Source: Anniella stebbinsi (taxonomy: Eukaryota > Chordata > Lepidosauria > Squamata > Anniellidae). From it: a DNA stretch of 64,000 nucleotides. Numbering within the stretch: the first letter of the stretch is position 1; each line of letters begins with the position of its first letter. Shown one piece after another: positions 10,107 through 62,689 of this stretch. The stretch spans positions 18,640,001-18,704,000 of the forward strand of contig JARDYH010000003.1 in NCBI GenBank assembly GCA_029215795.1, in the 5' to 3' direction. A model generated the notes under the pieces. That model was given only the letters and a program-made list of their open reading frames with translations. It did no database searches and was not told where the DNA came from. A program made the translations under genes and the position numbers.

Positions 10107-10334
10107 TGGCTCAATTTGGATGACACAATAGTCAATGGTGGGGTAATAATCAACTTTACAGTTGTTCAACTAGGGGGTACTCCCCACACAACATGGTAAT
10201 AAATAATCAACTGTGGTGTGGATGAGGATCAGCGCTGAGTTGACTATGGTAGCATTCGGATGACACAATAGTCAAAACAACTGACGATTGTTTCCTCCAC
10301 ACCAGTTGTTTATTGTGTCGTCTGAATTGAGCCA
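10107..10334. mobile_element. Inverted-repeat DNA element (MITE-like), copy 2 of 2
   Basis: Starts TGGCTCAATTTGGATGACAC and ends with its near inverse (GTGTCGTCTGAATTGAGCCA). It aligns end to end with 806-1031, including the internal third copy of the ATTCGGATGACACAATAGTC motif. The two copies differ mainly at CpG-derived positions, consistent with methylation decay. Confidence 0.8.
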
Positions 10335-49065: not shown

Positions 49066-49266
49066 CAAGACTTTGGACAACAAGGTTTGAATCCCTGCTC
49101 ACCCTGGAATATACTATCTCTCTTCCCATGATCTCTGTCTAAAGGTGAACAAATTAAAGACTGTAAAGTCCTTTGCAACTTAGAAGCTCAGTGAATTTGA
49201 CTAATAATTATGATAATGATGTTTCTGAACATCAGAAGTTTCATCCAGATAGCTGCATCATTTCTA

Positions 49267-49622
49267 GGGCCTCCTCCACACGAGACGTTTAATGAGCCTT
49301 AGAGGCTCATTATAAATTTTACCTCCACACCAGCGGAGCGCAAAACGGGCGTACAGGCGCGTTATTTCCCCGATAATGCGCATTTTCAAATGCGCGTTAA
49401 ATAGCGACTTTTATTTTTCTCCGGCCGTTAAAGTGCATTATCGCGGTGTGAACAAGCGATTATGCACGTTAACGTCTTCTAAAGCGCTTTTTGGACATGA
49501 ATTAATGCGCTTCGCCGCCTCTCGCCGCCTCCCGTGCAGAGGGATTAGGCGTAAATGCGCCTCCACGATAATGCGCATAATCCCGGAACCGGGCGCAAAA
49601 GCGCATCCTTGTGGAGGGGGCC
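49267..49622. mobile_element. CpG-rich inverted-repeat DNA element (356 bp)
   Basis: The ends GGGCCTCCTCCACACGAGAC and (inverse of right end) GGCCCCCTCCACAAGGATGC are flanked by TA on each side (49265-49266 and 49623-49624). The interior is rich in GCGC, TGCGCATT and TAATGCGC motifs, far more CpG than the flanks. No coding capacity. The TA duplication suggests a TA-targeting superfamily, but this is tentative. Confidence 0.6.
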
Positions 49623-50559
49623 TAGCTCTCACTCTTATCTGATATACTTAAAGAGCCTTAACAGTTTTGGCTGCCTTTAAGCTAGACTGTAAAATTAGCA
49701 CCCTGTCTGCTCTCGCTGAATATACCACCATCACCATCGTCATCATCACAATTCTCCTACTGATCAGGAGTCTGGCATTGCAGCTGATCTCTTAAGTGGT
49801 GGTTGCAAGAGGCAAGGAGGCAGGTTGGCAAGTTGCATAATGAGTGCCTGGAGGGCTGGCCGCTGGGGGAAGCTTGAAGCAGCATTGCAGTCTGAAGAGG
49901 AGACATCAAAGGGATCAAAAAAAGATTAATGAGAAAATTGGGGCAGTGTGAGCTTATAAAAGACTGAGCGGAGCACACAACGGGTCTGGACTTGCTTGAC
50001 CTCATCCCAGTATTGGAAGTGAAGAGGTGAGTGCTGCTAAGTTGCAAAGGGAGAAACTGACAGGCAAGCGGCAGATATTATGCAGAGCTCAGCTGCGGAT
50101 GCATAATATAAGAGAGAACATGCCATAAATGTATTTAGTGAAAAAAATGTCTGCTCCACTTCTGCTACATTCTCAGCGGTGAAGCCAGCTGCAGGGGAGC
50201 CTGGATCTTTATGTCAGGGCTGGCAGCCTAGAGGCAACCACGTACTGACTGGGTAGATAGTTTAGCCTGGAAACAGGCAAGCAGACATGCAAATGGGTGG
50301 AAAATCAAATACAGGCATTCTGCAACTGAGTAGCCAGAGTCAGAAGCTTGATAAGACGAAGTGGAAGTCTTGATAGCCCTTTGTGTCACCTGACCAAGGC
50401 TAAGCTGGTAAGTCGCAGTACTACCTTCTGGCCATTTGCAGCGGAGGTGCTGAACAACAGCAGAAAGTAAGCCAGCGGTTCTGTTATCTGGCAAGCTACC
50501 ACAATGGTGCAGAGAGTAATGTGTGAGGTTGGACCCCAGCACATGATTTATTTTAATTA

Positions 50560-51835: not shown

Positions 51836-51843
51836 AGAAATAG
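51836..51843. repeat. Left target-site duplication of the hAT-like element
   Basis: AGAAATAG, repeated exactly at 53690-53697. Eight-base duplications are typical of hAT transposition. Confidence 0.9.
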
Positions 51844-52099
51844 TAGGGATGTGCACTGGATCGGACCCGATCCACGATCCGAGTCCGGTCCAGTGGGAAA
51901 TCGGATAAATTATCCGATTTCCGATCCCGCAGCTGGATCGGCCGATCCAATCCGAACCGGTCCGAAAAAGCTCCGAACCGGTTCGGCGGATCGGCGGATC
52001 GGCGGGCGCCCACTGGCGCCCACCGCCGCTTCCATTGGTGGGCGCCAGCGGGCGCCCGCCGATGAAAGTGGACAGCGGGGGGGGGGGAGGAGGGGGGCA

Positions 52100-52290
52100 C
52101 TTACCTTCTCGGCCCGGTGGCTCCCGTCCGGCGCCGGCGCCTACTACTACTAGCAGGCTCCGCGGCCTGCTCTAGGGTGGCGCGCCGGGTGATGTCATCA
52201 CCCGGCGCGCTACTCTAGAGCAGGCCGCGGAGCCTGCTGGTAGTAGTAGGCGCCGGCGCCGGACGGGAGCCACCGGGCCGGGAAGGTAAG
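52100..52290. repeat. Palindrome unit 1
   Basis: 191 bp, arms of about 95 bp around a single central T at 52195 (GGTGATG-T-CATCACC). The outer ends are CTTACCTTCTCGGCCCGG and CCGGGCCGGGAAGGTAAG. The arm includes CCGGCGCCTACTACTACTAG and CAGGCTCCGCGGCCTGCTCT. Confidence 0.9.
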
Positions 52291-52348
52291 GAGGGGGTGC
52301 GTGGAGGGGAGGAGGGGGCGCGCGGAGGGGGGAGGGGGGAGGGGGGCC

Positions 52349-52539
52349 CTTACCTTTCCGGCCCGGCGGCTCCCGTCCGGCGCCGGCGCCTACTATTCCC
52401 AGCAGGCTCCGCGGCCTGCTCTAGGGTGGCGCGCCGGGTGATGTCATCACCCGGCGCGCTACTCTAGAGCAGGCCGCGGAGCCTGCTGGAAGTAGTAGGC
52501 GCCGGCGCCGGACGGGAGCCGCCGGGCCGGAAAGGTAAG
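52349..52539. repeat. Palindrome unit 2
   Basis: Same design and size as unit 1, centred on 52444. Its arms carry CTACTATTCCCAGCAGG on the left and CCTGCTGGAAGTAGTAG on the right, a shared asymmetry with units 3 and 4. Confidence 0.9.
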
Positions 52540-52590
52540 GAGGGGGTGCGTGGAGGGGAGGAGGGGGCGCGCGGAGGGGGGAGGGGGGCC

Positions 52591-52781
52591 CTTACCTTTC
52601 CGGCCCGGCGGCTCCCGTCCGGCGCCGGCGCCTACTATTCCCAGCAGGCTCCGCGGCCTGCTCTAGGATGGCGCGCCGGGTGATGTCATCACCCGGCGCA
52701 CTACTCTAGAGCAGGCCGCGGAGCCTGCTGGAAGTAGTAGGCGCCGGCGCCGGACGGGAGCCGCCGGGCCGGAAAGGTAAG
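52591..52781. repeat. Palindrome unit 3
   Basis: Centred on 52686, 242 bp after unit 2. Almost identical to unit 2, with A in CTCTAGGATGGC and a GCGCACTACTC variant in the right arm. Confidence 0.9.
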
Positions 52782-52832
52782 GAGGGGGTGCGTGGAGGGG
52801 AGGAGGGGGCGCGCGGAGGGGGGAGGGGGGCC

Positions 52833-53023
52833 CTTACCTTTCCGGCCCGGCGGCTCCCGTCCGGCGCCGGCGCCTACTATTCCCAGCAGGCTCCGCGGCC
52901 TGCTCTAGGATGGCGCGCCGGGTGATGTCATCACCCGGCGCGCTACTCTAGAGCAGGCCGCGGAGCCTGCTGGAAGTAGTAGGCGCCGGCGCCGGACGGG
53001 AGCCGCCGGGCCGGAAAGGTAAG
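52833..53023. repeat. Palindrome unit 4
   Basis: Centred on 52928, again exactly 242 bp from the previous centre. It shares the CTCTAGGATGGC variant with unit 3, which implies these two arose by a recent duplication. Confidence 0.9.
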
Positions 53024-53111
53024 GAGGGGGTGCGTGGAGGGGAGGAGGGGGCGCGCGGAGGGGGGAGGGGGGAGGAGGGGGCGCGCGGAGGGGGGAGGGG
53101 GGAGGGGGGCC

Positions 53112-53289
53112 CTTACCTGCCCGGCCCGGCGGCTCCCGTCCGGCGCCGGCGCCTACTACTACCAGCAGGCTCCGCGGCCTGCTCCAGGGTGGCGCGCCGG
53201 GTGATGTCATCACCCGGCGCGCTACTCGAGAGTAGGCCGCGGAGCCCGCTGGTAGTAGCCGCCGGCGCCGGACGTGCCGAGAAGGTAAG
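53112..53289. repeat. Palindrome unit 5 (right arm shortened)
   Basis: Centred on 53207. The left arm is full length. The right arm lacks about 13 bases near its end (GGACGTGCCGAGAAGGTAAG) and has changes such as CTCGAGAGTAGGCC. It is the most diverged unit. Confidence 0.85.
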
Positions 53290-53689
53290 TGGCGGGGAAG
53301 GGGGCTTACCCCCCCCCGGAGCCGTCCGCTTCTATCCGCTGGCGCCCGCGGGCGCCAGCGGATGGAAGCAGGCGGCCCCAGGGGGGGTAGGGAGCGCGGG
53401 GGAGGGGGTTTACCTGCCGGGGCCGTCCACAGCGGACGGCCCCGGGGGGGGGGAGGGAGTTAGGCCCCCCCTTACCCACCCGCCGCCATTTTTTCCTCAT
53501 AGACTTGCATTGCAATGCAAGTCTATGGGGAAAAAAATGGCGGCCGATCCAAAAATTTCCGATTTTTGGATCGGGATCGGACTCGATCCGGTCCGGGGGG
53601 CCTCCGATTTTGTCCGAACCGGTCCGGGACAAAATTGGAGGTCCCGATCCGGGTCCCGATCCGATCCGGGGGGTCCGTGCACACCCCTA

Positions 53690-53697
53690 AGAAATAG
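53690..53697. repeat. Right target-site duplication of the hAT-like element
   Basis: AGAAATAG, identical to 51836-51843. Confidence 0.9.
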
Positions 53698-60852: not shown

Positions 60853-61947
60853 CTAAATGACACATTCCCACCAATGGGGGGACACAGTGTTAGAAAGCAT
60901 GCAAAAAAACTTCAAAAAAAGTCTGTTACAAGAAAGAACATGATCCTCTCCTGCCTTGAAGGAACCCTCCTGAGCACTAAGGACTTAAGTCACCTATTGC
61001 AATCCCCATTTACACTGCAGGGTGTGGATGGGGAGGTGCCTTGGCATCCGCCATGCATTACTGGATAGGAATTTGCATCTTCATCTATCATCTCATGCCA
61101 CTGGTTCTAACAATACCTTGTCTTTGTGCATTAAATGACATTAAGAACATCTTGTAGTCTCTTCGGTGACACTTTGTGATGTAGATATCATGCACTAGGG
61201 ACTCATTTTAAACTGGATTGGGGACACAACTGAAGGGTGGATTTAATGTTTAACATCTGAGATGGGCTTTCAGCCATGTGTGAATGAATGCAGCCTAGAA
61301 CAGGCACAGCAGCAGCACCATTACTGCAAATGAAGTACCAAGATTCCTGAGGGCAACCTGAAAGTTGATGGGAAGAAGTGGGACAATGCTGCAGTGTGAA
61401 TACAAGTGTCTGTGGCATTCCCAGTAAGACATGTGGCATTCAAAGACCAAGTTCTGTATCACCTATGACAAGGCCCTAATACTAGTGGATTGCTGTATAT
61501 ATCCTGCATGTGAAAAGTTTTAGTACGCAACAAAGGCTCAGATCTCGCAGTGATAAATAAGCAGCATTCTGGTGCGGCTAGGCCCTGTATCTCCCAAGGG
61601 TGCTTATTCCTCTTTGAGCTCTCTTCTCCATTATGATTTCCACAGCAGGCCTTGCTAAAGGCTTCATTGTTAAGGCAAGGCCAATCGGTTAGGACATAGA
61701 GCAGGGTCTTCTCATAGGTGATCCTTTTGTTATGGGCCCTCCCCAAGGAGGCCCACTTTGGTCTGTCATTGTCTGCCTTTAGAAAATGCGGCAATACTAT
61801 TATCTTTAAACTCCAATTTGCTTTCAGTGCATTTTAATTATGACTTTTGATTAAGCTCAGCGTTGCGCTCAATTGGCATAAGAGCACTATGGGCTGCATT
61901 ACAACGTTATTGAACCTACAATTGTTTAAATAAGAAGAAACACATAC
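60853..61947 (-). other. Intron 14
   Basis: 1,095 nt. No recognised repeat or extra exon. Confidence 0.6.
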
Positions 61948-62155
61948 CTGAAACACAGTGAGCAGTGACTGGGGAAAGTTGTCAAATGTGCTTCGCCTGG
62001 TTTGCATCTCATCGAAGTTAAACTTGCCTCCAAAGAGCTGCATCCCTAGGAGGGAGAAGATGATGATGAAGAGGAAGAGGAGCAGCAGCAGGGAGGCAAT
62101 GGAGCGCACGGAGTTGAGCAGGGAAGCCACCAAATTACTCAGCGAGTTCCAGTAC
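61948..62155 (-). CDS. CACNA1C: CACNA1C exon 14: domain II S4-S5 linker, S5 and pore turret
   Basis: Seen: 208 nt. The acceptor is a CCCCAG and the donor GTATGTG. The first base completes a codon from exon 13; then the frame reads [16 protein letters not shown], a strongly hydrophobic S5 segment ([20 protein letters not shown]), GGKFNFDEM, and the start of the pore helix ([13 protein letters not shown]). Known: S5 lines the outside of the pore module, and the S4-S5 linker couples voltage-sensor movement to the gate. The peptide is essentially the vertebrate Cav1.2 sequence. It is the most 5' exon in the window; exon 13, which would encode II S4, is not seen upstream. Confidence 0.97.
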
Positions 62156-62689
62156 CTGGGGAGCCAAAAGAGAGAGGCTTAAATTTCCTTGGTGTAAAGC
62201 AGGTGCTTTTTGCCTGCATCAGGTATCACATTCAGGAAGGCTGCCTGATGTCTATAAACATGCCTTTTCCCAACAGCCTGTCAAGGAATGAATCAGTCAT
62301 GCACGACTTTACAGGCACACGTGTAAAACACACAAATCCTCCCCCATTTCTACATCTTGCATGCCTGGAAGATTACTTAAAAAAAAAAAAAGCAAGCACA
62401 CCACTTATCAGTATGCAGCGATTAGTAGGTGCTGCTTCAATGGATTATATTCTAGCCAACCTCATTACAACACTCACAGCTGTTCAAAGTAAACCAGAAT
62501 ACCTCACTCCAGAGAATGGCTCAGTAAGAACTGACAAGAACAGATGGAACAACAGACTGGAATCAAAGGCTTTGTATGTGCTCCTTGGATGGAGGGGCCA
62601 GCCATCTTGCTTTCTGGGAAACTGATGTAGAACCACCCTAATATTTATACTGGGGCAAATGTACTCTTAGAATATTAATTCACACAAAC

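Follow-up and report, generated by a model that had tools for sequence, protein, structure and literature searches.

A young, highly abundant family of non-autonomous hAT transposons in Anniella stebbinsi with an expanding array of long palindromes and signs of exchange between palindrome arms

Introduction

The closest described relatives of the element studied here are the Ac-like non-autonomous hAT transposons which, as far as the available part of the Hermes report describes them (PMC10368747), have short inverted ends, an 8-bp target duplication and subterminal repeats, as does our element. The likeness extends further: no coding domain was found in the element, and its genome contains a similar-ended open reading frame (ORF) with zf-BED and hAT-dimerisation domains. 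The difference lies in the interior, which here is a variable array of palindromes of about 190 bp each, and in the partner transposase, which here is a candidate.

Tandem arrays within DNA transposons are known from several other systems. Tetris, a foldback transposon of Drosophila virilis, is described in the accessible text of its report as a DNA transposon that is non-autonomous and carries tandem repeats of about 220 bp in its interior, in a number that varies by duplication, and in these respects it is like our element; its repeats, however, lie inside long terminal inverted repeats, whereas our element has 13-bp ends, a central array and palindromic units (PMC4079207). The defining feature of foldback elements, tandem repeats within long terminal inverted repeats, is thus absent here, where the central array stands in direct orientation between ends of 13 bp. 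Galileo resembles our element in the expansion of tandem repeats within a DNA transposon and in the involvement of its copies in inversions, but it belongs to the P superfamily and has long terminal repeats, and the available portion of the source does not speak of its repeats as palindromes (PMC4168063). Finally, Xstir and miDNA4 of Xenopus are MITEs carrying satellite repeats, and so provide variable tandem arrays in, or derived from, a small vertebrate DNA transposon; unlike our element, miDNA4 is of the Tc1/mariner type, and the accessible passages on both do not describe the monomers as long palindromes (PMC9659126, PMC12628747).

A search of literature titles and the beginnings of abstracts, with Repbase, Dfam and subscription journals outside its scope, gave no transposon with a tandem array of palindromes. 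This negative result is not proof of novelty: the type of family is known, and it is the architecture and the scale that are unusual. Palindromes longer than about 150 bp are generally regarded as unstable and as obstacles at which replication forks stall. Nevertheless, the genome considered here has been colonised in very large numbers by palindromes of a kind commonly considered too unstable to persist. We find that the element belongs to a young, very abundant non-autonomous hAT family with an expanding array of long palindromes inside it and signs of exchange between the arms. The explanation as a whole, namely a non-autonomous hAT transposon which is moved in trans by a hAT transposase and whose array has grown from a single palindrome, is in our judgement highly probable.

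Results and Discussion

The element in the window and its class

The window is the whole stretch of 64,000 nucleotides that was analysed (assembly GCA_029215795.1, contig JARDYH010000003.1, positions 18,640,001 to 18,704,000), and the features of the element within it are collected in Table 1. An earlier, sequence-only reading of this DNA had reported inverted termini and an exact 8-bp target duplication, both of which are present. The same reading had given the termini as 24 bp long, which is too much: the ends are indeed inverted, but the inverted repeat comprises 13 bp, 12 of which match, and further inward the two ends can be aligned only with gaps. Ac-type inverted ends begin with C/TAGGG. 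The 8-bp duplications, the short ends of Ac type, the target preference (see below) and the subterminal repeats at both ends place the element in the hAT superfamily.

Table 1. Features of the palindrome-bearing element, in window coordinates
Feature	Position	Strand	Remarks
hAT-like element	51844-53689		1846 bp
Left target-site duplication AGAAATAG	51836-51843	.	
Right target-site duplication AGAAATAG	53690-53697	.	
Left terminal inverted repeat TAGGGATGTGCAC	51844-51856	+	
Right terminal inverted repeat TAGGGGTGTGCAC	53677-53689	-	1 mismatch to left
Left subterminal region	51844-52003	+	10 CCGATC/CGGATC-type words
Short palindrome	51896-51922	.	13-nt arms
Palindrome	51998-52063	.	27-nt arms, 12-nt spacer
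Palindrome unit 1, first of array	52100-52290	+	centre 52195
Palindrome unit 2	52348-52540	+	centre 52444
Palindrome unit 3	52590-52782	+	centre 52686
Palindrome unit 4	52832-53024	+	centre 52928
G-rich spacer 4	53025-53110	+	lengthened by 30-bp tandem duplication
Palindrome unit 5, last of array	53111-53290	+	centre 53207
Palindrome	53310-53387	.	39-nt arms
Short palindrome	53417-53445	.	
Palindrome	53482-53544	.	about 31-nt arms, one indel
Right subterminal region	53536-53689	+	10 CCGATC/CGGATC-type words

The element has a G+C content of 0.72 and a CpG observed/expected ratio of 0.93, compared with 0.41 and 0.21 in the rest of the window. A coding function is rejected, since none of the five ORFs that overlap the element matches a Pfam domain and the longest of them has no protein match at E ≤ 0.001. 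An Rfam scan returned nothing at gathering thresholds, and exact patterns from the element occurred 0, 0 and 0 times in viral contigs.

The subterminal words listed in Table 1 are absent from the 1532-bp middle of the element, and seven more occur in the remainder of the window. This distribution bears on the proposal that the array raises transposition by adding binding sites for the transposase, as has been suggested, in the part of the literature available to us, for Galileo and Tetris (PMC4079207). In both of those transposons the number of tandem repeats is likewise variable; but here the array is central rather than within terminal repeats, and a middle with no subterminal words, between ends with ten each, disfavours additional transposase sites in the array, so that we consider the proposal very unlikely. 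Under our preferred explanation, the transposase would recognise the 13-bp ends and probably also the CCGATC-type words, and the palindrome may have no essential role in transposition.

Five palindromes in one orientation

The sequence-only reading had located five near-perfect palindromes, with spacings of 249, 242, 242 and 279 bp, and both the centres and the spacings are exact. The description as near-perfect applies to units 1 to 4, whose arms measure 95-96 nt with 4-6 mismatches, but not to unit 5, where deletions in the right arm leave best ungapped arms of 63 nt that are 83% alike. The right arm of unit 5 also does without a 3-bp insertion, as do the arms of the single-unit copies described below. 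Together with the five further palindromes of Table 1, the units cover about 63% of the element. The best palindrome score is 76, as against at most 10 in 200 dinucleotide shuffles, and so the palindromes of the window are not due to chance; all eight palindromes in the window that score 10 or more fall inside the element. When unit 2 is folded as single-stranded DNA, it forms one hairpin (z -25).

To the right of the array there are three more YTTACC sites, at window positions 53305, 53409 and 53471, each of which adjoins a G-run or C-run and precedes a palindrome, as is the case at the array units.

A private base change had been noted in units 3 and 4. It is real (column 18 of the arm), and comes on top of further changes that units 2 to 4 have in common. 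Reading the arms from the outside to the centre, columns 16 and 19 hold G in the left arm and A in the right arm in all five units. Since the same asymmetry is found in every unit, we infer that the palindrome formed once, diverged, and was then copied whole in a single orientation. In addition, the first left arm and the last right arm carry the sequence CACTTACCTTCTCGG at their outermost edges, and the inner edges lack it; this suggests that these two arms once formed the original palindrome and that the array came to lie between them. When whole arms are scored, it is the right arm of unit 1, rather than the first left arm, that comes nearest to the last right arm of the window copy, as is to be expected from columns 16 and 19.

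Abundance and insertion sites

We searched the window's own assembly (1.89 Gb, 91 contigs) for three patterns, each of which gave no match when reversed as a control. The left end (30 nt, at most 3 mismatches) has 7,358 + 7,366 = 14,724 matches, so that other copies with the same ends exist, and the copy in the window is not a single odd locus but one of roughly fifteen thousand. The palindrome core (31 nt, up to 3 mismatches) matches 43,335 times in the forward and 43,341 times in the reverse direction; since the core is nearly its own reverse complement, these counts overlap and are not summed. The last right arm (42 nt) matches 10,133 + 10,001 = 20,134 times, a figure that bounds rather than counts the elements, because insertion-free arms elsewhere can also match. 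One vertebrate genome thus contains about 43,300 core matches of a family of 190-bp palindromes, in rows of up to ten. If every core match were a full-length unit, they would amount to about 8 Mb, or some 0.4% of the genome, which is an upper figure.

For closer analysis we took the first 20 clusters among 100 listed places with an exact core match, all on contig C1 and in one orientation; the orientation is a consequence of the centre base. Such a sample favours young copies. The same ends with a perfect 8-bp duplication occur at 18 of the 20 loci, as they do, with all eight bases matching, for the window copy. At locus L037, seven of the eight bases of the duplication match. The remaining locus, L040 (C1:2554800-2559200), might be taken for an odd composite, a description that we reject: it holds two separate single-unit copies in opposed orientation, with 415 bp between them and with their 8-bp duplications swapped, which is what an inversion caused by recombination between the two would leave. 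Counting L040 as two and adding the window copy, we analyse 22 elements in all.

Ac-type elements prefer the target nTnnnnAn. Among the 19 perfect duplications (L037 and L040 excluded), position 2 is T in 13 and position 7 is A in 15; the window copy itself has G at position 2 and A at position 7. The target preference is therefore of Ac type. MITEs are short, non-coding and present in very high copy number; the 22 elements here are 707-3045 bp long, and MITEs are usually shorter than most of them.

Array size and copy age

The number of units per element ranges from 1 to 10 across the 22 elements, with a tandem period of about 234-250 bp. The lengthened spacing before the last unit of the window copy exceeds 250 bp, as no spacing does in any of the 17 other multi-unit elements. 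For a second estimate, which uses positions alone, 68 of 100 listed left ends, taken from both strands, could be paired with a last arm; the other 32, which had no exact last-arm place, are left uncounted. In 67 of these 68 paired copies the distance from the left end to the last arm is within 0.2 of a whole number of units, and the estimate again spans 1-10 units, with a mean of 4.5; exact matches favour young copies here too, and some loci are in both samples. Of two candidates for palindrome-free copies, C1:3318906 and C1:4324760, the second measures about four units and is rejected as such. The suggestion that the family would comprise many loci with differing unit numbers is thereby borne out.

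Palindromes and tandem repeats are hard to assemble, and one might suppose that the array is an artefact of assembly; the exact number of units at any single locus could still be wrong. An artefact is, however, at odds with clean ends and 8-bp duplications at independent loci, with the fixed asymmetry of the arms, and with array lengths so close to whole numbers of units; we find it hardly credible.

Array size varies with the divergence of the copy. The four copies with one palindrome (L034, L040a, L040b and L048) belong to the more divergent ones, at 1.6 to 5.2% from the consensus, and position 126 is G in all of them. The 11 G126 elements contain 1, 1, 1, 1, 2, 3, 3, 4, 4, 4 and 4 units, as compared with 3, 4, 4, 4, 5, 5, 6, 6, 6, 7 and 10 in the 11 A126 elements (Mann-Whitney p 0.001, in a test that ignores the relatedness of copies). 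The 5' ends of the A126 elements differ by a mean of 0.37% in pairwise comparison, as against 3.2% in the others. Across all elements, divergence and number of units are negatively correlated (rho -0.52, p 0.012, n 22); the 5' ends alone of the first 20 elements give rho -0.44 and p 0.05, and both correlations again ignore relatedness. L032 runs against this trend, being the most divergent element (6.9%, with a poorly aligned 3' part) and yet containing three units. The larger arrays are found in the younger subfamily, A126, and the interior array appears to have grown over time.

How the array expands

It had been proposed from the window that units were duplicated stepwise inside the element, and also that the array expanded during hairpin-forming transposition. 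The first proposal holds, and the second is rejected as the engine of expansion. The units are direct tandem copies, and in L038 they follow the order A B B E C B B E C plus a last unit, which is an exact duplication of a four-unit block. Moreover, the left-right asymmetry of columns 16 and 19 is retained by all of the 56 units whose arms are ungapped and over 85% alike; the other 30 of the 86 units lie outside this count. The hairpins known from hAT transposases form on the flanking donor DNA. The fixed asymmetry and the four-unit duplication in L038 support expansion by tandem duplication rather than by repeated formation of palindromes. Such a pattern is the signature of unequal exchange or slippage.

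The units were also compared within and between elements. The nearest neighbour of a unit lies in the same element for a fraction 0.44 of 65 full-period units, as against 0.056 when labels are shuffled (maximum 0.205 in 1000 shuffles). The 66 full-period units form 53 haplotypes, eight of which are repeated. Haplotypes B, D and E recur only inside a single element; the other five of the eight (A, C, F, G and H) are common to different elements, and so part of the variation has been inherited by transposition. For example, L038, L043, L049 and the window copy all begin with haplotype A, and in L049 and the window copy haplotype H comes next, after which their units differ. We conclude that local duplication and inheritance through transposition both contribute to the arrays.

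A stricter reading of the same data is that expansion occurs only in a few source copies, so that variation across the genome reflects the spread of pre-formed types of array and each inserted copy is fixed. The five shared haplotypes, the common openings of arrays (haplotype A in four copies, A-H in two) and the near identity of the ends of young copies all speak for it; against it stand the clustering of units by element, the large number of haplotypes, the confinement of B, D and E to single elements, and the duplication of the BBEC block in L038 only among the sampled elements. We regard this reading as a possibility to be taken seriously, if not the one we favour; the clustering and the haplotypes fit expansion after insertion and expansion in an unsampled source copy alike.

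A variant of the arm, consisting of a 3-bp insertion and two linked substitutions, provides a marker of exchange between arms. The insertion is on neither arm in all four single-unit copies, where the variant as a whole is absent, the left arm of L048 having one of the two linked substitutions; it is absent from L046 too. L045 has the variant on a single left arm, that of its last unit; L031 has it on the left arms of the two middle units, and L032, L036, L037 and L039 have it on both arms of the middle units. Finally, in the 11 A126 elements it is on both arms of the middle and first units, but not on the last right arm; nine of these 11 first units are plainly both-arm, and two have one arm that is not fully classed; some first left arms of G126 elements are unclassable. 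Overall, the insertion is on both arms in 44 of 48 middle units, and it is missing from the last right arm in 18 of 18 multi-unit elements, as the window copy had suggested for the original right arm. This distribution indicates, as its best explanation, that outer arm sequence has been transferred between left and right arms without the unit being flipped. Taken alone, symmetric single-base changes are weak evidence for such exchange (P 0.002-0.04, depending on the model). The order of the steps is inferred from the divergence of copies and not from a rooted tree.

In our preferred explanation, then, the ancestral interior would have been one near-palindrome of about 190 bp, whose left arm is now the first arm of the array and whose right arm is now the last. 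Between these original arms, unequal exchange or template slippage, perhaps where forks had stalled, would have enlarged the array in both inserted and source copies, and the arm variant would have spread by a conversion-like exchange between inverted arms. With one to ten units per copy, the family is a natural replicate experiment on the duplication of palindromes, on arm exchange and on tolerance, and the interior of this transposon may be on its way to becoming a satellite. Satellite DNA forms long arrays beyond the ends of a transposon; the arrays analysed here are those within element ends.

Conserved edges and centres

In 20 elements with 86 units, an outward donor-like motif, [AC]AGGTAAG, stands at 85 of the 86 left edges and again at 85 of the 86 right ones, and all 86 units share one 11-bp centre, TGATGTCATCA. 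The centre may be read as a bZIP-type site and the edges as splice donors. The palindromes could on these grounds be selected as CpG-dense modules, with the array aiding the transposon or its partner by acting as a bidirectional promoter or a transcript trap. The near-invariant edges, the identical centre and the CpG ratio of the element are what this idea predicts; but the core was also the criterion by which copies were sampled, and the symmetry of the edges follows from the palindrome itself. Conservation of the motifs is furthermore expected without selection, because most copies are young. Selection of this kind seems to us unlikely.

A broader reading would combine several of these features into a mobile array that is still expanding, with arms re-symmetrised by exchange and units acting perhaps as bidirectional CpG promoters with outward splice donors. 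It is rather unlikely. If it were true, tens of thousands of 190-bp palindromes would have been seeded in a vertebrate germ line, which must replicate through them.

A candidate transposase partner

Matches to the hAT dimerisation domain are abundant in the genome, and 150 of 1,498 candidates were scored. An intact ORF of 866 aa with zf-BED and hAT dimerisation domains is contained in one long hAT element, L081 (C8:86126300-86136100), the dimerisation part of which matches Hermes in PDB. This element starts with TAGGGGTGTGCAT; 42 of its first 48 nt match the window element, and its left end is 75% alike over about 160 bp (E 1.7e-23). Similarity between the two is confined to that left end, with nothing alike inside, in a comparison that covered the left end and the interior of L081. 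Since, in addition, no palindrome in L081 scores above 10, we reject direct descent of our element from it.

No transposase with exactly the ends of our element was found among the hAT matches examined. L081 may be best regarded as a relative of the likely helper, to which a closer one may exist, and judging from the shared left end and domains the element is probably moved by a relative of the abundant zf-BED/hAT transposase of the same genome. In Hermes, according to the available part of the report, several BED domains bind the subterminal repeats of the left end (PMC10368747), which fits the clustered CCGATC-type words of our element.

Of the 150 scored matches, 104 lie in open frames of 841-871 aa, on contig C1 and others; many of them are equal in score, which suggests that coding hAT elements multiplied in a recent burst. 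L081 also contains long tandem arrays, at least three in number (147 bp x 6.1, 148 bp x 10 and 62 bp x 13); after these come repeated exon-like blocks whose edges, by eye, resemble splice sites.

Surroundings of the element

A high density of CpG is not unique to the element, since a second small DNA transposon in the window is CpG-rich as well. It occupies positions 49264-49625 (about 356 bp), has a CpG observed/expected ratio of 1.47 and inverted ends GGCCTCCTCCACA and TGTGGAGGGGGCC, and is bordered by TAG on either side.

An ORF on the minus strand at 61834-62178 has as its best match CACNA1C, an L-type calcium channel, and other exon-like ORFs, recognised by eye only, are on the same strand. 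From these ORFs, we place the window in or beside CACNA1C, and the element probably in an intron of that gene. Elsewhere in the window, positions 806-1031 and 10107-10334 form a pair of repeats of about 228 bp each that are 93.9% identical.
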